DNA from: Myxosarcina sp. GA_180221_E-2-1-MAG-40_15
GTDB lineage: Bacteria; Cyanobacteriota; Cyanobacteriia; Cyanobacteriales; Xenococcaceae
Length of the DNA stretch: 38,130 nucleotides
Assembly (NCBI GenBank): GCA_020692205.1
Contig: JAIMKV010000049.1
Location: forward strand, 1 to 38,130
Reading direction: 5' to 3'
Under the pieces are notes generated by a model. The model was not told the DNA's origin and did not search any database. It worked only from the letters and a program-made list of their open reading frames with translations. Of the stretch, positions 1,653-10,894 are shown piece by piece (within the stretch, counting starts at the first letter, position 1; the number at the start of each line of letters is the position of its first letter). Both the position numbers and the translations under genes were made by a program.

Positions 1653-2342
1653 TCAAGAATATAGCCAGCTATCAACTACTTTTAACATAGTCTTATCACC
1701 CAATCCTTTCACATTTTCCAACACTTCATTGAGTGATTTAAAAGGTCTTGCCTCGATAATCTTGGGAGCTATATCGTTAGCTTTTTTATCTGATCTAAGA
1801 ATTGGTTTTAGCTTAATGACTAATTCATTCTTACTAGCTTGATTAAAAGTTGTCAGTGGCTCTATTCGTTCGGGAAGCTTCTGCTTAAGATGATCAATTT
1901 CTTGCTCTAATTCCTGATTTTTTTGAGAAAATTCGCTTGTTAATTCATTAAACCGATTTTCTATTCTTGATTCAAGGTTGGTTAACCTAAATTCTAAATT
2001 ACTAACATTTCCTTCGATGGGCTTTGGTTCTTGAGACTCTCGAAAGATGCTAACCTGTTCTTCTATTGTTGCTTTATTTTCTTCTTCAATGATATATGCT
2101 GCGATCGCTTCACCTATTTCTAGATTTAATTCTCTGGCTCTAGCTGCTGCATGATATTCCAAGTGTCCATGTAATACCTGAAAAGAATTAATTCCTGTCC
2201 GACTTACTATTATGGGATTAATTATGCCTTCTGCTTCAATAATTAACTGTGCAGCTTTTTCTATTTTCTGTTCATCAAAGTTAGAACGAGGTTGATCGGA
2301 AGCTATCGTTCTCACTTCTACTAAAGATGGTGATAGAGTCAT
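1653..2342 (-). CDS. ParB-like protein with C-terminal helix-hairpin-helix
   Basis: A 229-residue protein with three parts. Residues 1-105 resemble the ParB/sulfiredoxin fold that in ParB proteins binds CTP and DNA-loaded clamps; VLHGHLEYHAAARARELN occupies the position of the family's GERR-type motif, but the usual arginine pair is absent. Residues about 120-165 are charged and heptad-like, probably coiled coil. Residues 170-229 carry a helix-hairpin-helix-like end (EARPFKSLNEVLENVKGLGDK), which usually contacts DNA non-specifically. The start is well supported by AGGAG four bases before the ATG, and this ATG overlaps the stop of the upstream ParA fusion (ATGA), so the two are translationally coupled. 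The central helix-turn-helix typical of chromosomal ParB is not evident, so this is not the housekeeping copy. Function in partition or in defence is inferred from its partner. Confidence 0.75.
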   Translation of the reverse strand: MTLSPSLVEVRTIASDQPRSNFDEQKIEKAAQLIIEAEGIINPIIVSRTGINSFQVLHGHLEYHAAARARELNLEIGEAIAAYIIEEENKATIEEQVSIFRESQEPKPIEGNVSNLEFRLTNLESRIENRFNELTSEFSQKNQELEQEIDHLKQKLPERIEPLTTFNQASKNELVIKLKPILRSDKKANDIAPKIIEARPFKSLNEVLENVKGLGDKTMLKVVDSWLYS

Positions 2343-3730
2343 ATTGCTCCTATTTTTTTCAATACTTCAGTTGCTAAATTTTCAAACTCTTGTGCAGATT
2401 GAGAACTGGGACTAAAGTCTAATACAGATCTGGGATCGGGAATTTCTATTTCACCTACAAGTTGAACAGCATCAGCACATTTAGCTAAATCCTCTCTTTG
2501 AAATATAGTTGTTTTTAACAAAGGTAATTCATATTTATCAGTGATTTTCGATAACTGTTTAGGTAAAGTGCTAGTTACAAATTTGTGGTTGGTTGGTATT
2601 TTACTAGGAAGTACACCAATAATTTTCAAAGGTTCTTGATTAATTATTTTTTTTGTGGAATTAATATCTTGAATAAAGTTTTTAACATTTACCAATCCTT
2701 GGTTAGCAAAAGGCTTTAAATCTGAAGGGATAATTAGAAATTCCGCTGCGATTAAAGAAATTCTGGCATATAAATTTAAAGACGGAGGGGTATCTATTAA
2801 AACAATATCGTATCGCTCCTTAACTTCTTTTAATTTTTGGATGAGGGTGAAATTTATTGAAGCTAATTGATTTAATTTACTTTCTTTTTCCATCAAGGTT
2901 ATATGAGAAGGAATAACATCAATTGTTGGAATACAAAAGTTAGATGTTCTCTTAATAGCTTCAATAGGATAAGATTCGCCAAATTCTATAACATGAGAAG
3001 CATTGGCTTTTTTGATATCATCATCAACCTCATCTTCAAACTTTACTAAGCCAGTAGCAAAGGTTGTATTTGCCTGACTATCTAAGTCTATAACTAATAC
3101 TTTTTTACCTTTTTTGCTTAAGGCTGCTGCTAAATTGATGACAGTAGTTGTTTTGCCTACACCACCTTTATTGTGATATACCGCTATAGTTTTCATATTT
3201 TGTTTGTTTGGTACTTTGGTTGCTGTAGAAGCATTTGTGATAGTTATTTCATGGCTTTGCCTATTGTTTTTTCTAAGACTATTTTTGCCAATTATAGCTT
3301 GAATTGTAGTAATATTATGGGAAATTTTATTGCCGCTACACCGAAATAAAAGTTTTAAGGGAATAGGAAATAAACCTCTAGCTAGTCCTGGCGAGTCTAC
3401 TTTTTGATAAATTCTAAAATCTCTGCCACTTGTCAAAACTCCATACGGTACTGATATGGTATGTAGATATTTATTTAATTTTCCTACATGATTATCTAAA
3501 TTCTCTTTTGGGTGTTTAGTTTCTATGATTAAACTACGAGCCAAGTTTATTTTTTGCTCATTAGAAATAATTGGGCTGTTCAAAATAAAAAAGTCAAGAC
3601 GAATCTGTCGAACAGTTACTTCTTCGTACCAGCTATCAGGAGAATATCCTAATCTTGGTAATAAATAGTGAACTATTAGTTTACTTCTTACTTCTGTTTC
3701 ATTACGGCAATGCTGGGGAATAAAGTTCAA
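2339..3730 (-). CDS. Fusion of HsdR-N-like nuclease domain and ParA ATPase
   Basis: The 463-residue product joins two domains. Residues 1-130 resemble the N-terminal nuclease domain of type I restriction R subunits: an early Glu (E12), LDFFIL (D46) and IIETKHP (E70-x-K72) fit the PD-(D/E)xK active site. Residues 179-463 form a ParA/MinD-type ATPase with a deviant Walker A KGGVGKTT (188-195), DLDSQANTT in the switch I region and VLIDTPPSL as Walker B. The first codon in frame is TTG with no good ribosome site; the next Met is 179, exactly where a normal ParA would begin, so two products are possible. It is the first gene of a pair with the ParB-like gene, overlapping by four bases. A ParA normally ferries DNA cargo on nucleoid; a nuclease attached to it is unusual. 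The role is unknown; plasmid partition or defence are both possible. Confidence 0.82.
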   Translation of the reverse strand: MNFIPQHCRNETEVRSKLIVHYLLPRLGYSPDSWYEEVTVRQIRLDFFILNSPIISNEQKINLARSLIIETKHPKENLDNHVGKLNKYLHTISVPYGVLTSGRDFRIYQKVDSPGLARGLFPIPLKLLFRCSGNKISHNITTIQAIIGKNSLRKNNRQSHEITITNASTATKVPNKQNMKTIAVYHNKGGVGKTTTVINLAAALSKKGKKVLVIDLDSQANTTFATGLVKFEDEVDDDIKKANASHVIEFGESYPIEAIKRTSNFCIPTIDVIPSHITLMEKESKLNQLASINFTLIQKLKEVKERYDIVLIDTPPSLNLYARISLIAAEFLIIPSDLKPFANQGLVNVKNFIQDINSTKKIINQEPLKIIGVLPSKIPTNHKFVTSTLPKQLSKITDKYELPLLKTTIFQREDLAKCADAVQLVGEIEIPDPRSVLDFSPSSQSAQEFENLATEVLKKIGAI

Positions 3731-4087: not shown

Positions 4088-4318
4088 ATGTCTTTCCATT
4101 TTTCCTCCTGGTCGATTAAAAATCTCATTCCCACCTAGATAGTGATCGCTGTTATTGGCGGATTTACTACCTCGACTCTTTTGAATTTAGTGATTGTACC
4201 CGTTTTGTTTACCTATGTTGATAGCTTGATTAAAAGCATGAGCAAGTTTTTCGGCTTAACTCGCGCTAAAGAAACTAGTAGCGAATTAACCGTTAGTGGT
4301 AAGCAATTTGTCTGTTGA
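4088..4318 (+). pseudogene. RND efflux transporter remnant, ends only
   Basis: An ATG at 4088 opens MSFHFSSWSIKNLIPT, the characteristic start of cyanobacterial RND (AcrB-type) pumps. A TAG follows at 4136, and the same frame then runs on as IVIAVIGGFTTSTLLNLVIV, then PVLFTYVDSLIKSM and a short polar tail to a stop at 4316-4318. That second part is the last transmembrane helix and C-terminus of the same family. About 1,000 residues between them are gone. This is a dead gene produced by a large internal deletion with the reading frame kept. It ends just upstream of the gdmH promoter. Confidence 0.8.
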
Positions 4319-4362
4319 ATTTAAATTTTTGTTGATGAACGATAACATTACTTGTAAATATG

Positions 4363-4404
4363 GTAATAATTGTTACATTCTTCTGGATAGTAAGCAGATA
4401 AGTT
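4363..4404 (+). promoter_or_regulatory. NtcA-type nitrogen-activated promoter of gdmH
   Basis: GTAATAATTGTTAC (4363-4376) is an exact GTA-N8-TAC box, the binding site of the cyanobacterial nitrogen regulator NtcA. Exactly 22 bases later comes TAAGTT (4399-4404), matching the TAN3T -10 element. This is the canonical spacing of NtcA-activated (class II) promoters, in which the NtcA site replaces the -35 box. Transcription would begin near 4410, just before the riboswitch. Confidence 0.72.
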
Positions 4405-4421
4405 TAAGATACGGAAAATTT

Positions 4422-4546
4422 GAGAAGGCTTCTAGGGTTCCGATTTATAGCCATGGGCTAATGAATGACTGGACCGAGAGAAGCAAGCTACCTGGAACAG
4501 TAACTAATTCCAAGTAGCCCCACGGCGGGATAAAAGCCCGGGAGGA
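4422..4546 (+). ncRNA. Guanidine-I (ykkC) riboswitch aptamer
   Basis: The conserved blocks of the ykkC class appear in order: TCTAGGGTTCCG (4431-4442), ACTGGACCGAGAG (4468-4480), a variable arm, then CACGGCGGGATAAAAGCCCG (4521-4540) and GGAGG. Guanidine-I riboswitches bind guanidinium and turn on genes for guanidine breakdown or export. The 3' strand of the aptamer overlaps the left arm of a terminator, so this should be an ON switch acting on transcription. It lies about 75 bases upstream of gdmH. Confidence 0.95.
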
Positions 4547-4588
4547 TTCGATATTTGCAACATAAGTATCGCTCTTCCTGGGTTTTTT
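4537..4588 (+). terminator. Riboswitch expression-platform terminator
   Basis: The left arm CCCGGGAGGA (4537-4546) pairs over ten positions, two of them G-U, with TCTTCCTGGG (4573-4582), followed at once by six T (4583-4588). The left arm is also the 3' conserved strand of the aptamer. Guanidine binding would sequester it and let transcription proceed into gdmH. Confidence 0.88.
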
Positions 4589-4620
4589 GTATTTGAGATC
4601 AATAGTCGAGGAATAATTTT

Positions 4621-5814
4621 ATGAGCGAACAATCTCCATTTCAACCATCAAATAATAGTGAAAATGGATCTAGTAGCGAAGCCCAAGCAGCTTTAGCCAA
4701 AGAACGTCAACTACCCCTCACAGGCTGGCAACAGGAAGTAGACCAAGGCTTAGAGTATGGTTTAGCAGCAGCAGAGAGTATTAAAGATCGAACTATTTCT
4801 ACTTTTTCGCGCGGGGAATTGCCCCACTATGCGGGAATTAACACGTTTATGAAAGCTCCTTATTTAGAGAATGTAAACCAAGTAGGCAATTACGATGTAG
4901 CAATTATTGGTGTTCCTCACGACTCTGGTACAACCTACCGCCCTGGCACTCGTTTTGGCCCCCAAGGGATTCGCAAAATTTCGGCTTTATATACCCCTTA
5001 TAACTTTGAACTGGGGGTAGATTTGCGAGAACAGATTACCCTCTGTGATGTGGGTGATATCTTTACCATTCCCGCCAACAACGAAAAATCTTTTGATCAG
5101 ATTTCTAAAGGTGTGGCTCATGTCTTTAGTTCAGGTGCATTTCCGATTATTTTAGGTGGCGATCATTCCATTGGCTTTCCCACAGTTAGAGCTGTTTGTC
5201 GTCATTTAGGCGATAAGAAAGTTGGGATCATCCACTTTGACCGCCATGTGGATACGCAAGAAACGGATTTAGATGAAAGAATGCACACTTGTCCTTGGTT
5301 TCATGCAACCAATATGGCAAATGCTCCAGCCAAAAACTTAGTCCAATTGGGCATTGGCGGTTGGCAAGTACCTCGCCCTGGAGTAAAAGTATGTCGAGAA
5401 AGAGCGACTAACATCTTAACCGTAACCGACATTACCGAAATGGGTTTGGATGCTGCGGCAGACTTTGCCATTGAGAAAGCTACCGACGGTACAGACTGTG
5501 TTTGGATTAGCTTTGATATCGACTGCATCGATGCGGGATTTGTCCCTGGTACTGGTTGGCCTGAACCTGGTGGCTTATTACCCCGCGAGGCTTTGTATTT
5601 ACTCAAAAAAATTGTCCAAAACACCACCGTATGCGGTATCGAAGTTGTGGAAGTTTCACCTCCCTATGACGTTAGCGATATGACCGCACTGATGGCAACC
5701 CGTGTTATTTGCGACACTATGGCGCATTTAATTGTCTCAGGACAGCTACCTCGGCAAGAAAAGCCTTCATACATTCATGAAGAAGCTCAACAAGTAGATG
5801 AACCTTGGCAATGA
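4621..5814 (+). CDS. gdmH: Nickel-dependent guanidine hydrolase (ureohydrolase family)
   Basis: Hydrolyses guanidine to urea and ammonia. The 397-residue protein belongs to the arginase/agmatinase fold but has the long N-terminal extension (about 85 residues) seen in the cyanobacterial guanidine hydrolase represented by Synechocystis Sll1077. Metal ligands are all in place: GGDHS (H182), FDRHVDT (D207, H209, D211) and SFDIDCID (D299, D301), followed by AGFVPGTGWPEPGG. Older annotation would call this agmatinase (speB). Three features argue for guanidine: the riboswitch in its leader, hypA/hypB nickel chaperones downstream on the same strand, and the extended N-terminus. The NtcA-type promoter adds nitrogen control. 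Substrate identity is inferred from homology and context, not measured. Confidence 0.92.
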   Translation: MSEQSPFQPSNNSENGSSSEAQAALAKERQLPLTGWQQEVDQGLEYGLAAAESIKDRTISTFSRGELPHYAGINTFMKAPYLENVNQVGNYDVAIIGVPHDSGTTYRPGTRFGPQGIRKISALYTPYNFELGVDLREQITLCDVGDIFTIPANNEKSFDQISKGVAHVFSSGAFPIILGGDHSIGFPTVRAVCRHLGDKKVGIIHFDRHVDTQETDLDERMHTCPWFHATNMANAPAKNLVQLGIGGWQVPRPGVKVCRERATNILTVTDITEMGLDAAADFAIEKATDGTDCVWISFDIDCIDAGFVPGTGWPEPGGLLPREALYLLKKIVQNTTVCGIEVVEVSPPYDVSDMTALMATRVICDTMAHLIVSGQLPRQEKPSYIHEEAQQVDEPWQ

Positions 5815-5900
5815 GCAGGGGAAGATTGCTTTTTCATTGATTTAACATTTATTTTCTATCATGCTTTTGACCGCGACTTAAATAGTAAAGGATGAAATCA

Positions 5901-6659
5901 ATGACTAATCAGCTTCATCAAATGAATCCTCCAGAAAGATTTAATAACCGCGCTGAAGACTATGCGAAATATCGACCGAGTTATCCATCCGCAGCAATCG
6001 ACTGTATTGTGGAGGGATTGGAGAAACCAGATGGCTTAACTGCTGCTGATATCGGTGCGGGAACAGGCATTGCTTCTCACTTATTAGCTGAAAGAGAAGT
6101 CAAGGTAATTGCGATCGAGCCTAGTGCAGGTATGAGACAAGCAGCAACACCTCATCCTTTAATTCAGTTTGAGGATGGTAATGCTGAGAATATTCAATTA
6201 GAAGATAATTCAGTCGATTTAGTTACTTGTTTTCAAGCCTTTCACTGGTTTAATCCCGAACCCACCCTAGCCGAATTTGCCCGTATTCTCAAGCCAGGAG
6301 GAAAACTAGCAACAGTCTGGAATAATCGCGATCGCTCTGATAAATTTACCAAAGAGTATGGTAATTTAATGAAAATAGCTGCTAATGTTAAGCCTAAATT
6401 GCGGAAAGATCGAATAAAATCTCTTCACAATACTTCACTTTTTTCCTCAGTTCGTCATCTGGTTTTTCCCTACCAGTACGCCTTGAATCGAGATGGTTTA
6501 ATCGGTCGTGCTATGAGTGCTTCATACATGCCTAAAACAGGAAAAATTAATGAAAAATTGACTAGAAAACTGAATAAATTATATGACCGATATTGCGACG
6601 ATGCAGGTTTAGTTTACTTCAAATACAAAACCAATGTTTATCTGACTTCACCTAACTAA
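5901..6659 (+). CDS. Class I SAM-dependent methyltransferase
   Basis: A 252-residue Methyltransf_11-type protein. It begins with the typical RFNNRAEDYAKYRPSYP segment, then motif I ADIGAGTGIASHLL (about residues 49-62), an acidic end of strand 2 (IAIEPS), and motif VDLVTCFQAFHWFNPE near residue 105. The C-terminal half is poorly conserved and could hold the substrate site. I chose the ATG at 5901 because AAAGGA lies eight bases before it; an upstream ATG at 5892 sits inside that ribosome site. It lies 86 bp after gdmH and before the GST and hypAB genes on the same strand, so it may be carried on the guanidine-induced transcript. No role in guanidine metabolism is known for this family; the substrate is unknown. 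Confidence 0.85.
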   Translation: MTNQLHQMNPPERFNNRAEDYAKYRPSYPSAAIDCIVEGLEKPDGLTAADIGAGTGIASHLLAEREVKVIAIEPSAGMRQAATPHPLIQFEDGNAENIQLEDNSVDLVTCFQAFHWFNPEPTLAEFARILKPGGKLATVWNNRDRSDKFTKEYGNLMKIAANVKPKLRKDRIKSLHNTSLFSSVRHLVFPYQYALNRDGLIGRAMSASYMPKTGKINEKLTRKLNKLYDRYCDDAGLVYFKYKTNVYLTSPN

Positions 6660-6689
6660 ATTCAGCATTCTCAACCGAGATAGATAACA

Positions 6690-6735
6690 GTTGACGGTCA
6701 CTAAATAAAGTCAACGGGCGAATGGTAATTCGCCC
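6690..6735. repeat. Hairpin-forming intergenic repeat
   Basis: GGGCGAAT (6716-6723) and ATTCGCCC (6728-6735) make a perfect 8-bp stem with a 4-base loop. Just before it, GTTGAC (6690-6695) and GTCAAC (6710-6715) form a second small inverted repeat. There is no T run, so this is not a standard terminator. It may be a dispersed palindromic element or an RNA-processing site between the methyltransferase and GST genes. Confidence 0.5.
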
Positions 6736-6785
6736 TCAATCATACACTAGTATTGGTTTAACCTCTTTGTTAGTAAAGACAAATC

Positions 6786-7391
6786 ATGTATAAGCTATAC
6801 GACTTTCTTCCTTCTGGCAATGGTTATAAAGTCCGTCTGTTATTAACTCAATTACTGATTCCTTTTGAAAGAATCGAGCTAAATATTTTAAATGGAGAAA
6901 CCAGAACTGCTGAATTTTTGCAGAAAAACCCTAACGGTAAAATTCCTTTACTAGAAATTGCCCCAGATAAATTTGTCTCAGAATCCAATGCAATTTTATA
7001 TTATCTCAGCCAAGAAACAGCATATTTTCCTTCAGATAAATATCAACAAGCGCAAGTAATGCAATGGCTATTCTTTGAACAATACAGCCACGAACCTAAC
7101 ATTGCTACTCCGCGATTTTGGATTACCGAACTAAAACAAGCTGATAAATATCAAGAACAGATCGAACAAAAGCGAAAATTGGGTTATGCAGCTTTAAATG
7201 TTATGGAACAGCATCTTAAAAACTACGATTTTTTTGTAGCCAATCAATATACGATCGCCGATATCGGTCTTTATGCCTATACTCACGTCGCTGAAGAAGG
7301 AGGATTTGATTTAACTAAATTTCCTGCTATTAATGCTTGGTTTAAAAGAATTGAATCTCAACCGAGACATATTTTAATCACCGATAACTAA
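6786..7391 (+). CDS. Glutathione S-transferase family protein
   Basis: A 201-residue protein with the canonical two-domain GST layout. The thioredoxin-like N-terminal domain (1-75) has PSGNGYKVRL, where a Ser or Asn normally activates glutathione, the cis-proline segment NPNGKIPLLE (48-57) and the glutathione-binding ESNAI (66-70). The all-alpha C-terminal domain follows with NYDFFVANQYTIADIGLYAYTHVA containing the N-capping D motif. It lies 126 bp after the methyltransferase and only 11 bp before hypA, so it is probably co-transcribed with hypAB. Its electrophilic substrate is unknown, and a link with guanidine use is only positional. Confidence 0.9.
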   Translation: MYKLYDFLPSGNGYKVRLLLTQLLIPFERIELNILNGETRTAEFLQKNPNGKIPLLEIAPDKFVSESNAILYYLSQETAYFPSDKYQQAQVMQWLFFEQYSHEPNIATPRFWITELKQADKYQEQIEQKRKLGYAALNVMEQHLKNYDFFVANQYTIADIGLYAYTHVAEEGGFDLTKFPAINAWFKRIESQPRHILITDN

Positions 7392-7402
7392 TAACTGAAA
7401 AG

Positions 7403-7798
7403 ATGCATGAAACTGATATGACCAAGGCTTTAATCTTGACGGTTAAAGATTGGTATCACTCTCAACCAGAAAAAGCCAAAATAGAAAAAATTCATTTAAT
7501 TGTCGGACAGTTTACCTGTGTCGAACCCGTTAGTCTACAGTTCGCTTTTGAAGTTCAAACCCGCAACACTTTCCTAGAAGGAGTAGAACTGGCTATTCAA
7601 GATATTCCTTTGATCGCTTTTTGTCATAGCTGCCAACAAGAATATAAACCTGAAATTGGACTGCAATATAGTTGTCCTGATTGTAAGTCACCAATGGAAG
7701 ATATTCGCTCTGGACGTGAATTAAAAATTGATCGCCTGGAATATTCATTAACAAATAATTGTAGTACCGAAGGGCAATTTGCCACTAACGATAATTAA
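7403..7798 (+). CDS. hypA: Nickel chaperone HypA
   Basis: HypA delivers Ni2+ to a target enzyme together with HypB. The 131-residue protein starts with MHE, whose N-terminal amine and His2 bind nickel in the family, and has the structural zinc site CHSCQQ...CPDC (C74, C77, C91, C94). No hydrogenase subunit or other hyp gene is in the window, while a Ni-dependent guanidine hydrolase lies upstream on the same strand. In Synechocystis an adjacent HypA/HypB-type pair is needed for GdmH activity, so this copy most likely serves GdmH rather than a hydrogenase. The gene is 11 bp after the GST gene and 19 bp before hypB. The bases before the hypA and hypB starts are alike (TAACTGAAAA then ATGCA), suggesting coordinated translation. 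Confidence 0.93.
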   Translation: MHETDMTKALILTVKDWYHSQPEKAKIEKIHLIVGQFTCVEPVSLQFAFEVQTRNTFLEGVELAIQDIPLIAFCHSCQQEYKPEIGLQYSCPDCKSPMEDIRSGRELKIDRLEYSLTNNCSTEGQFATNDN

Positions 7799-7817
7799 TT
7801 ACTATTAACTGAAAAAA

Positions 7818-8519
7818 ATGCACCAAACATTCGACGCTGCAATTGAACTAAATTTACTCCACGCCAACCAAGAAGGCGCAGATTACAACCGTGAACACTT
7901 TAATGAGTGGGGAATTACGTGTCTTAACATTATGAGTAGTCCAGGGGCTGGTAAAACTGTTCTTTTGGAACAAACCTTAGCTGCATTAAAAGATAAATTA
8001 AACATTGCCGTAATTGAAGGAGACATGACCACCGAACTAGATGCCGATCGCCTGCGTAAATACAATGTTCCTGTAATTCCGATTAATACGGGACGTTCCT
8101 GTCATTTAGATTCCAAAATGGTGGCTGGCGGCATTCATACTCTAGCACATCAATATAATCCCTCTGATTTTGACCTAGTTTTAGTAGAAAACGTCGGTAA
8201 TTTAGTTTGTCCTGCCGAATTTGAAGTAGGAGAACACGCTAAAGTCGCCTTACTCAGCGTCACTGAAGGGGAAGACAAACCCCTGAAATATCCCGTGATG
8301 TTTCAAGAAGCAGATTGCTTGTTAATTACTAAAATCGATCTCGCACCTTATTTAGATATCGACCTAGATCGCATTACTGCCAATGTGCGACAAATAAATC
8401 CTAAAGTAAAGATTATTTCTGTATCAGCGAAGACAAGTGAAGGACTAAAACAATGGTTTGCTTGGATAAGCGATCGCGTTATCGAAAATTCAACTAAACA
8501 AATCGCAACACAAGTCTAA
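7818..8519 (+). CDS. hypB: Nickel-insertion GTPase HypB
   Basis: A 233-residue SIMIBI-class GTPase that drives nickel transfer from HypA to the target. The P-loop is SSPGAGKT (40-47). GRSCHLDSK (C95, H96) holds the conserved metal site of the G domain. [31 protein letters not shown] and the guanine-specificity motif [10 protein letters not shown] follow. The N-terminal CxxCGC nickel motif and any His-rich stretch found in some HypB proteins are absent, so it does not store nickel. It pairs with hypA immediately upstream and is the last accessory gene before the symporter. Most likely it matures GdmH. Confidence 0.95.
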
Positions 8520-8638
8520 ATAAGTAGAAATGAACTTCTTTCTGGAAATAACCTCCAGAGATATATCTTGGTCAAAGCAGTTCGTTGCTACAAGTATCTA
8601 ATGTTATTGTTATGTGGTCATTGTTGACCAGGAGTAAT

Positions 8639-10141
8639 ATGACAGAAAAACTTCTGTTTTGGGGAATTATCATATTTTTGTTTGCCACTCTAGCAATTGG
8701 TATGTGGGCAGCAAAACAAGTAAAAGGAGATAGCGAAAACTATTTAGTGGCTGGGAGAGGATTAGTCTTACCTTTAGCCGCAGCAACTTTGATGGCGCAG
8801 TCAGTAGACTCAAACGCTACTTTAGGCAATACAGATTTAACCGCAGAATTTGGCTTTTGGGCTGGGGCATCTTTACCGATTGGATTAGCACTATGTTTGT
8901 TTCTAACAGCCCTGTTTTTTGCCAAACCGATGAACCGCATGGGTTTAATTACTCTGCCAGATTTTTATCGAGTTAAATACAATCGCCTCACTGAAGTAGT
9001 TGCTTCTTTGTTAATGGTGTTGAGTTTTTCCTTCTTGTTGGCCGGTAACTTAGTTGCTGGAGGGTATTTATTTCAAGCGTTTTTAGGCACGAGTTACATA
9101 GCAGGTGTAATGTTGCTGGCAATTGTTGTCTTTATTTATACCGCTAGCGGCGGATTATTTGCCGTAGCCTATACCGATGCCATTCAAGTTGCGATCGCTT
9201 TTATTGGTTCGATGGGTTTGCTGGTCTTTATGGCTGTTAACTTTGGTTTAGATATACCTGCTGATACTGGTCCTTTAGCCCTAGCACAACTAAGTGATCC
9301 TGCCGCTGGTGCTGCAATTAACTGGGCAACTCTATTAGCTTTGGGATTGGGAGATATTGTAGCGATTGACTTCATGGCGAGAGTCTTTGCCTCAGAAAGT
9401 CCCGAAACGGCTCAGAGAGCTTGTTTAATTGGCTGTGCTGGCACTTTGATTATTGGCATTCCTTTCTCCTTAATTGCCCTATCTGCACCTCAAATTCTCG
9501 CCGATGCAGGAATTACTCCTGATGGACCAATTCTTTACGCACTTTTGAATGGAATCGTTCCTCCCTTACTATCATTATTGGTAATAGTGGCAATTCTTTC
9601 TGCTTCTCTTTCTACGGCGGACGGCGCAATCTTAGGAACTTCTTCCGTCATCGCCCACAACATAATAGGCATTCGTTCTGACGACCATAACGCAGCAGGA
9701 GACAGACTGTTGTTAGTTACCCGCGTTATGGCTTTTGTGGTTACGGCATTAGGAGTATTCTTCGCCTTAAAAGTGCCTCAAACTGGAGTTTTACTACTAT
9801 TAGCTTTCGATTTGGGTTTTGCAGGTCTGCTAGTTCCCTTAGCTGGAGGACTTTACTGGAGTAAGGCAACTTGGCAAGGTGCGCTATCTTGTATTATTCT
9901 TGGTTCGCTGACGCGACTGGTATTTTTTGTGCTAATGCCTACTGCCTTCGGCATCGACAATACTTTACTATATATCCCTAACAATATTTTTACGGCGGAT
10001 TTTGATGGTTTCCCTACTTTAATTAGTCCTTTAGTCGGATTAGCCGCATTTATAATTATTTCCAATTTGACACGGGGAAGTAAAGTTACACCAGGGCGTG
10101 TGCAGTCTGAGGCGAGAGAAGCATCAGTGTATCGTAGTTAA
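8639..10141 (+). CDS. Sodium:solute symporter (SSS family), candidate guanidine importer
   Basis: A 500-residue inner-membrane protein with about 13 hydrophobic helices. The family signature region is present: GMWAAKQVKGDSENYLVAGR after helix 1, SVDSNATLG in the unwound part of the second helix, YTASGGLFAVAYTDAIQ and later SASLSTADGAILG, whose Ser/Thr residues form the Na2 sodium site. I chose the ATG at 8639 because AGGAG lies four bases before it; the frame is open back to a TTG at 8585. The gene is 119 bp after hypB on the same strand. In Synechocystis the gdmH-hypA-hypB locus is followed by an ABC transporter; here an SSS protein holds that place. Guanidinium is therefore a reasonable substrate guess, but urea, amino acids or other solutes are equally served by this family. 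Confidence 0.88.
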   Translation: MTEKLLFWGIIIFLFATLAIGMWAAKQVKGDSENYLVAGRGLVLPLAAATLMAQSVDSNATLGNTDLTAEFGFWAGASLPIGLALCLFLTALFFAKPMNRMGLITLPDFYRVKYNRLTEVVASLLMVLSFSFLLAGNLVAGGYLFQAFLGTSYIAGVMLLAIVVFIYTASGGLFAVAYTDAIQVAIAFIGSMGLLVFMAVNFGLDIPADTGPLALAQLSDPAAGAAINWATLLALGLGDIVAIDFMARVFASESPETAQRACLIGCAGTLIIGIPFSLIALSAPQILADAGITPDGPILYALLNGIVPPLLSLLVIVAILSASLSTADGAILGTSSVIAHNIIGIRSDDHNAAGDRLLLVTRVMAFVVTALGVFFALKVPQTGVLLLLAFDLGFAGLLVPLAGGLYWSKATWQGALSCIILGSLTRLVFFVLMPTAFGIDNTLLYIPNNIFTADFDGFPTLISPLVGLAAFIIISNLTRGSKVTPGRVQSEAREASVYRS

Positions 10142-10160
10142 TGAGCGATCGCAATTACGA

Positions 10161-10529
10161 TTAACGGTAGTAAGTAACGCCACGATATTTTAATTTGGTT
10201 TTCTGCTTTGGTTTTAAAGCCTTAGTTCTTTCCGTTTGTAAAGTTAAATCCCAAGCGCGATCGAGTTTTTCTACTTCAGCTAAAAACCAGCAATTTTCCA
10301 GAAATTTCCGTTTATGATCGTACCAAAATCTAATTGGATCGAAAACGGGTTTTGATTCAGACTTGCCAAATAGCTGTTTGATATAGTTTAGCCAAGGAAA
10401 TTTAGGATTAATTCGGGCTTTAAGACAATTTCCGCGATAAATAAGCTCTTGGTTTGGTATTCCTACTGCTGATGCGGAAAAACTTGGATTTTCTTCTTGA
10501 TATTGAACTCCCCGATAAGTTAGCTTCAT
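10161..10529 (-). CDS. DUF4278 domain protein
   Basis: A 122-residue basic protein of the cyanobacterial DUF4278 family. The hallmark MKLTYRGVQYQE forms the N-terminus, and a second copy, LKYRGVTYYR, forms the extreme C-terminus, so the protein is framed by two LxYRGVxY motifs. A third, weaker one (LIYRGNCLKA) lies near residue 30. The start at 10529 is favoured by GGAGG eight bases upstream of ATG; the GTG three codons earlier overlaps that ribosome site. No membrane segments or signal peptide are visible. It is convergent with the symporter gene, 19 bp apart. The function of the family is not known. Confidence 0.85.
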   Translation of the reverse strand: MKLTYRGVQYQEENPSFSASAVGIPNQELIYRGNCLKARINPKFPWLNYIKQLFGKSESKPVFDPIRFWYDHKRKFLENCWFLAEVEKLDRAWDLTLQTERTKALKPKQKTKLKYRGVTYYR

Positions 10530-10894
10530 TTTCTCCACCTCCGTTACTCTGTCATGATTGAGGTGCGTTCCTTCAGGATTTTGGGATTACTCCTTACTTC
10601 CGTCTTTTCTCCCACGAACATAGAAAAGATGAACGATTTAGTAACTCTATCTTTATGATAATCAATAATTACCGATCCAAAGGTGGTGTAATTACTATTT
10701 GTTCAATATTGTTTTAGCTACTGTACAAGAGTTAAAGTGAACACTCATCAGTAGTCCAAGGTCGGGATTAAAACCAGCTTTTGCCGCCTAGTTGGATCAT
10801 TTCACCTAAACTAAAATTCCCACGACACAACTAAAATTTTGTTGTTGATCTCAAAGTATTAGAATTAAATCATGATTAAATTTGGCAAGTAGCC
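10530..10894. other. Divergent intergenic region, nothing specific seen
   Basis: This 365-bp gap lies between the DUF4278 gene (leftward) and the SLH lipoprotein gene (rightward) and must hold both promoters. I see no tRNA, riboswitch motif, strong palindrome or convincing small reading frame. It is AT-rich, without the GCGATCGC octamer. Confidence 0.5.

Follow-up and report, generated by a model that had tools for sequence, protein, structure and literature searches.

The window analysed here spans the full length of contig C57 (38,130 bp), part of a cyanobacterial draft genome of 4.87 Mb. It contains a locus that is probably a riboswitch- and nitrogen-controlled operon for guanidine assimilation with a Na+-coupled guanidinium importer. 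An NtcA-type box and a guanidine-I riboswitch, overlapped by its terminator (4421-4587 together), precede six genes of the + strand (4621-10141) which, by Pfam and NCBIfam profiles, encode GdmH, a methyltransferase, a glutathione S-transferase (GST), HypA, HypB and a sodium:solute symporter (SSS). The closest-matching gdmH loci come from Pleurocapsales/Xenococcaceae records. The core of the array (riboswitch, gdmH, hypA and hypB) is the known guanidine operon of the Synechocystis type, and the locus as a whole looks like a known kind of operon that carries an apparently new kind of importer. An earlier note on this DNA had listed the same elements in order on one strand, from the NtcA-type promoter to the symporter, and this layout is borne out by Rfam, by the protein profiles and by motif search. 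The strongest new point of that note was the suggestion that the symporter may serve in import, which is backed by riboswitches belonging to the symporter itself, by its replacement of an ABC importer and by its linkage to similar genes in other phyla.

Symporters and ABC importers at cyanobacterial gdmH loci

The symporter gene occupies positions 8639-10141 (+ strand; the start is taken as the ATG at 8639, the mechanical open reading frame start being the TTG at 8585), and its product is a predicted Na+-coupled guanidinium importer, as judged from the protein profile, the alignment of orthologues and the linkage to riboswitches. A sample of 386 genomes from the phylum, 58 of which contain gdmH, yielded orthologues of the symporter (E <= 1e-60) in six, all of them gdmH genomes (p 9e-6, with the window's genome counted). 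The locus counts rest on the best 80 of 445 gdmH loci, which are mutually related rather than independent (several, for example, are from Microcystis). Nine of these loci encode the symporter (76-91% identical to that of the window), 39 encode an ABC binding protein, scored by homology to that of Synechocystis salina, none encode both and 32 neither (p 0.0015; p 0.0008 for the alternation in the 68 loci with at least 4 kb downstream). Both types of importer occur among the Pleurocapsales-type gdmH-hypA-hypB loci, the symporter in L003-L006 and L047 and the ABC importer in L002, L007, L009 and L020. The 32 importer-less loci comprise 24 that were read gene by gene from listings, three (L024, L049 and L056) without a called gdmH reading frame and five short ones.

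Two copies of the symporter gene follow guanidine-I riboswitches of their own. In L041, the symporter gene is divergent from gdmH and each of the two lies behind a separate riboswitch (81.2 bits for that of the symporter), and in genome G169 (L117) the symporter gene starts 107 nt behind a riboswitch (86.3 bits) on a contig different from that of gdmH. The window's genome encodes a homologue of the ABC binding protein (66%; L146) on contig C67, with no adjoining permease or ATPase gene and no riboswitch; no orthologue of the ABC permease was found in this draft genome (best match 29%; no genome-wide ATPase search was made). This orphan binding protein is likely to be what remains of a displaced importer.

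Several observations weigh against assigning the symporter to guanidine import. G169 holds an ABC importer (at gdmH) in addition to the symporter, so that the two are not mutually exclusive by genome. In G157 and G213, the symporter gene is located on a contig other than that of gdmH, with no riboswitch at the gathering score in the stretch examined, and the G213 genome has no guanidine-I riboswitch at E <= 0.001; in L065, the symporter was matched in two pieces (and left out of the alignment), and no riboswitch is present there. Counted by genome, the symporter is found in four of the seven gdmH genomes without a close ABC binding protein vs two of the 51 with one (p 0.0011), a comparison in which the boundary between close and distant binding proteins was set after the table had been seen and which would weaken if G011, scored as lacking the ABC importer in spite of homologues of the binding protein (31%) and of the permease (49%), were scored as ABC. 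Genome-wide mutual exclusion of the two importers was rejected as a rule, as it holds only in part. The pairwise distances of gdmH and of the symporter in 13 cyanobacteria correlate weakly (0.21, or 0.40 without G169), which fits exchange rather than co-inheritance, and a separate promoter could be present in the 119-nt gap before the symporter gene.

This gap also bears on the possibility that the symporter gene just happens to lie downstream and takes no part in the guanidine response. The intergenic gaps from gdmH to the symporter measure, in order, 77, 126, 11, 19 and 119 nt, and the last of them contains a weak terminator-like site at 8539-8561. A terminator scan of 4300-10700, which is insensitive in that the riboswitch terminator also escapes it, returned seven sites over both strands, four of them on the + strand, and shuffled sequences give 5.7. 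The gap, the terminator-like site and the two of six symporter genomes (G157 and G213) in which the gene is unlinked and has no riboswitch match nearby would suit an unrelated neighbour. However, within the 386-genome sample the symporter is confined to gdmH genomes (6/6), it recurs beside gdmH in distant cyanobacteria and in two actinobacteria, it lies beside another ureohydrolase gene in haloarchaea, and it can have riboswitches of its own, all of which makes mere adjacency highly improbable. We infer that the symporter belongs to the guanidine operon and is expressed from a single transcript with gdmH.

The symporter protein

The SSF profile PF00474, which represents superfamily TC 2.A.21, is matched by the symporter over the whole length of the profile (8.6e-34, 1-406/406), and members of the superfamily are known to import their substrates on the sodium gradient. 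Human CHT1 is the closest solved structure both by sequence and by Foldseek, and its Na+-coupled transport of an organic cation was counted in favour of a guanidinium importer. Residues were matched in a HMMER pairwise alignment with CHT1, the ion and choline sites being those given in passages of the CHT1 paper (PMC11589582). S325 and T326 of the window symporter (transmembrane segment TM8) align with the Na2 residues S346 and S347 of CHT1 and are invariant between the window and each of the 17 orthologues compared; D180 and D328 align with the Na3 residues D188 and D349. The aromatic cage that holds choline in CHT1 is lost, given that W62, Y67, Y91, W141, W254 and W406 align with S55, A60, L83, L133, A242 and L386, that is, with non-aromatic residues at six of six positions. 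G64 of CHT1, which helps to hold a chloride beside choline, aligns with D57, which is unchanged in 17/17 orthologues compared and is Ser in both paralogues from the same genome (21-26% identical, so that the alignment is less sure). Because it is invariant in the orthologues and aligned to the chloride-binding loop of CHT1, Asp57 is a candidate guanidinium ligand. As far as the sequences go, we lean towards the view that the symporter represents a third class of guanidinium importers after ABC and APC, a Na+-coupled SSS family of cyanobacteria, actinobacteria and haloarchaea with the signature Q-[SA]-[VL]-D-[STA]-N-A around Asp57, in which a built-in charge would replace the chloride of CHT1 and pair with guanidinium.

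Not all features of the protein agree with this assignment. The Na3 residue S350 of CHT1 is replaced by Gly in the window symporter, and D180 is Ser in two actinobacterial proteins. The AlphaFold model of the symporter (pLDDT 60.5) is too weak for its binding site to be read, and just its fold match was used. The fold matches of this model also include DUR3 urea transporters, SSS proteins are diverse, and the ureohydrolases that accompany the symporter in haloarchaea are distant from GdmH, as would be expected if the symporter imported another guanidino or amine compound that accompanies guanidine use, such as agmatine, a methylated guanidine or urea. Such a substrate appears unlikely given the two symporter copies directly behind their own guanidine-I riboswitches and the position of the symporter in place of an ABC importer that is assigned to guanidine in passages of PMC12186494 and PMC10094980. 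Urea, in particular, would be an intracellular product, and its import upon a guanidine signal would make little sense. Guanidinium is retained here as the probable substrate.

Symporters beyond cyanobacteria

A plasmid collection yielded seven records with the symporter at 50-62% identity, the next matches being at 31% or less; six of the seven were opened, the seventh being a second record of Haloarcula marismortui. On the Rubrobacter indicoceani plasmid, the order is guanidine-I riboswitch, gdmH-like gene (61%), symporter (58%), formamidase (on the other strand) and urease, and in Nonomuraea the symporter gene is divergent from a gdmH-like gene (59%). In Haloarcula (two species), Halalkalicoccus and Natronorubrum, a ureohydrolase gene is located ~1.6-3.4 kb from the symporter gene. 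Two points weaken the link to guanidine in these lineages: the Nonomuraea and haloarchaeal stretches gave no riboswitch match, and the haloarchaeal ureohydrolase is just 34-36% like GdmH, so that the substrate there could differ. The Natronorubrum symporter match ends after 163 residues, with genes for an IS200/IS605 transposase and for TnpB next to it (L207 8001-10296).

Riboswitch and probable nitrogen control

The guanidine-I (ykkC) aptamer (4421-4546, + strand) matches Rfam RF00442 with 75.7 bits, above the gathering score of 63, and is the sole guanidine-I match in the draft genome at E <= 0.001. Its 3′ end is overlapped by an intrinsic terminator (4532-4587, + strand), the predicted expression platform: the hairpin predicted for 4527-4592 (-29.2 kcal/mol) uses the conserved 3′ strand of the aptamer as its 5′ arm and leads into a T-run. 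A like hairpin is present in eight of the nine symporter-type sequences compared, the window included, the exception being L047. Because this is the known mechanism of the guanidine-I class, guanidine binding should hold the shared strand in the aptamer and allow read-through. Of 81 sequences (the window plus the 80 loci), the 70 in which an aptamer start was recognised served for the terminator and promoter counts. By a simple test, 43 of the 70 have a terminator-like hairpin between the aptamer start and gdmH, the test being negative in Synechocystis salina (L057) and Xenococcus PCC 7305 (L047), among others.

On the other side, L117, with its riboswitch-linked symporter, fails the simple terminator test, and seven of the 11 sequences left out because their aptamer start was unrecognised (L011, L012, L014, L018, L035, L065 and L075) were scanned and gave no guanidine-I match, so that gdmH is not always under riboswitch control. 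Elsewhere in the set, stand-alone guanidine-I riboswitches lie ahead of ABC importers (in L121, L123, L127 and L129, among others), which makes importers with their own switch common in this genome set; others precede, by eye, a carboxylase-type operon (L124, L125, L128 and L131). In family f31 of the phylum, small genomes (~2 Mb) have guanidine-I riboswitches with no gdmH match at E <= 1e-60, and in the f31 genome examined (L137 285-755) the gene after the riboswitch resembles, by eye, an SMR exporter.

NtcA-activated promoters have the consensus GTAN8TAC with TAN3T 20-24 nt downstream, and this combination was adopted as the strict motif. A promoter of this type lies at 4363-4404 (+ strand) of the window, with the box GTAATAATTGTTAC at 4363-4376 and the -10 element TAAGTT at 4399-4404, 22 nt further on. 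The strict motif occurs once in the 38-kb window and shuffled sequences likewise give one (mean 1.07, maximum 4), so that the window alone is no proof of an NtcA site at 4363. In the 160-nt stretch that precedes the aptamer core, the strict promoter is found in 26 of the 70 sequences, the window included (shuffles: mean 0.20, maximum 2). Counting the box regardless of the -10 element gives 44 sequences (shuffles: mean 1.43, maximum 5); 23 of the 26 strict promoters sit 56-78 nt ahead of the core. The NtcA-type promoter is accepted because of this positional conservation, which also lends support to the nitrogen control proposed in the earlier note, and NtcA would be expected to bind there. It counts against the proposed operon reading that the riboswitched symporter copies in L117 and L041 lack a strict NtcA promoter. 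Nitrogen control of the locus is consistent with the decrease of Synechocystis sll1077-1082 expression under excess ammonium that is described in a passage of PMC10094980. Dual control by NtcA and riboswitch may already be in print, to judge from the title of a 2025 PNAS paper on cyanobacterial guanidine assimilation and riboswitch regulation.

Under the proposed scheme, nitrogen shortage would lead NtcA to switch on transcription, and the transcript would halt at the terminator unless guanidine occupies the aptamer, whose 3′ strand the terminator shares. The read-through mRNA would give rise to GdmH, which would convert guanidine to urea and ammonia, to the nickel-loading HypA and HypB and, most likely, also to the symporter, which would import guanidinium on the sodium gradient, the task of an ABC importer in Synechocystis; the urea would then be cleaved by a urease encoded elsewhere in the genome.

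The same parts could belong to a system that mainly detoxifies harmful guanidine, with a symporter that exports or balances ions, and many guanidine riboswitches indeed control exporters, guanidine being a possible stressor, according to a passage of the review PMC12186494. Against this stand the conserved NtcA-type promoter, the binding protein of the ABC counterpart, as typical of importers, and the position of gdmH and the symporter beside urease genes in Rubrobacter. Given also the sodium-driven import by other SSS proteins, detoxification seems very unlikely, and assimilation with inward transport of guanidinium is the interpretation followed here.

GdmH and the nickel chaperones

The gdmH gene (4621-5814, + strand; Pfam Arginase) encodes a predicted Ni-dependent guanidine hydrolase, an enzyme reportedly described by Funck et al. 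in 2022. Residues 18-397 of the protein align with structure 7esr over nearly its full length (7esr/7oi1, E 1.5e-242); the metal-site motifs GGDHS, HFDRHVD and SFDIDC are identical in the two proteins, and the Trp of GTGWPEPGG is also common to both. Structure 7OI1 is that of Synechocystis GdmH (a passage of PMC11410670).

The hypA-type nickel chaperone gene (GhaA-like; 7403-7798, + strand; TIGR00100, 123 bits, cut-off 88.1) and the hypB-type GTPase gene (GhaB-like; 7818-8519, + strand; TIGR00073, 308 bits, cut-off 121.2) both exceed the equivalog cut-offs and are linked to gdmH; hypA-hypB follows gdmH in 69 of the 76 loci whose downstream sequence extends for at least 1.5 kb. Family membership and this conserved order back the roles in sensing, hydrolysis and nickel loading that the earlier note had assigned. 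No NiFe hydrogenase was found in the window's genome; this result was rejected as proof that hypA and hypB serve GdmH alone, a second hypA/hypB pair being located on contig C114, beside a gene (identified by eye) for a putative hydrogenase maturation protease. In G169, the riboswitch-symporter unit is preceded by a hypA-hypB pair whose two members are just 31% and 52% like their counterparts in the window (L118 5445-9525). The urease alpha gene of the window's genome is on a separate contig, C129, and the module is therefore not self-contained, contrary to the earlier note, since urease is needed for the urea product.

Accessory and neighbouring genes

Between gdmH and hypA are genes for a class-I S-adenosylmethionine-dependent methyltransferase (5892-6659, + strand; Methyltransf_11) and a GST-like protein (6786-7391, + strand; GST_N/GST_C). 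The methyltransferase adjoins gdmH in 7/80 loci (one match, in L009, is short) and the GST in 6/80 (one match, in L006, is short), and homologues are found in 21 and 29, respectively, of 60 relatives. Within ~1.5-kb flanks, gdmH is present at 11 of 24 methyltransferase places and absent at 13, and is present at 10 of 30 GST places and absent at 20, the window being included among the positives in each case. The two genes are lineage-specific passengers or accessories, often found elsewhere, and the grouping of all eight elements into one module does not extend to them; a role of either in guanidine chemistry was dropped, both being patchy and also found away from gdmH. Between them, at 6716-6735, is the inverted repeat GGGCGAATGGTAATTCGCCC (8 pairs), with no + strand T-run.

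Tail-to-tail with the symporter gene is a DUF4278 gene preceded by a glutamine riboswitch (RF01739, 57.1 bits; region 10161-10637, - strand), and a DUF4278 homologue adjoins the symporter in L003 and L174, too. On the other side of the locus, the region 1653-3730 (- strand) encodes a 463-aa protein in which a type I restriction HSDR_N domain is fused to a ParA ATPase; the fusion gene adjoins that of a ParB-like protein whose C-terminus gives a weak ComEA-type match.

Comparison with known guanidine systems

The uptake of free guanidine is understood in few microbial systems. A passage of the review PMC12186494 names ABC and APC guanidine importers, and among the matches listed from the open literature (titles and passages) there is no description that connects guanidine use with an SSS symporter; the symporter mentioned alongside a guanidinase in a passage of PMC12625717 is the urea symporter DUR3. 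Sodium-driven guanidine import is possibly an unrecognised microbial uptake route. If this is true, a sodium-driven importer in place of the ABC one would extend guanidine uptake to further cyanobacteria, to actinobacteria and perhaps to haloarchaea, and would provide a single-protein tool for guanidine uptake; the vague annotation "sodium:solute symporter" would give way to a testable substrate prediction.

From the available passages, the closest known systems are Synechocystis sll1077-1082 (gdmH-ghaA-ghaB and an ABC importer) and the clusters of marine Synechococcus and Prochlorococcus (PMC8390497, PMC10119275, PMC10094980). The window shares with Synechocystis-type clusters the guanidine-I riboswitch, gdmH, hypA and hypB, whereas its importer is an SSS protein instead of an ABC transporter and a methyltransferase and a GST are inserted. 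The comammox Nitrospira guanidine locus, as described in part of PMC11410670, resembles the window in combining a guanidine-I riboswitch, a guanidinase and a single-protein secondary transporter; in Nitrospira, however, this transporter is an APC-superfamily permease and the locus has no nickel chaperones, whereas the window has the symporter together with hypA and hypB. At the protein level, CHT1 (SLC5A7), another member of the SSS superfamily, is the best match by sequence and by Foldseek and is similar to the window symporter in its Na2 residues and in having an organic cation as substrate (predicted in the case of the symporter; sites from passages of PMC11589582), but the symporter differs from CHT1 in the loss of the choline-binding aromatics and in the invariant D57 at the position of G64 in the Cl- loop.

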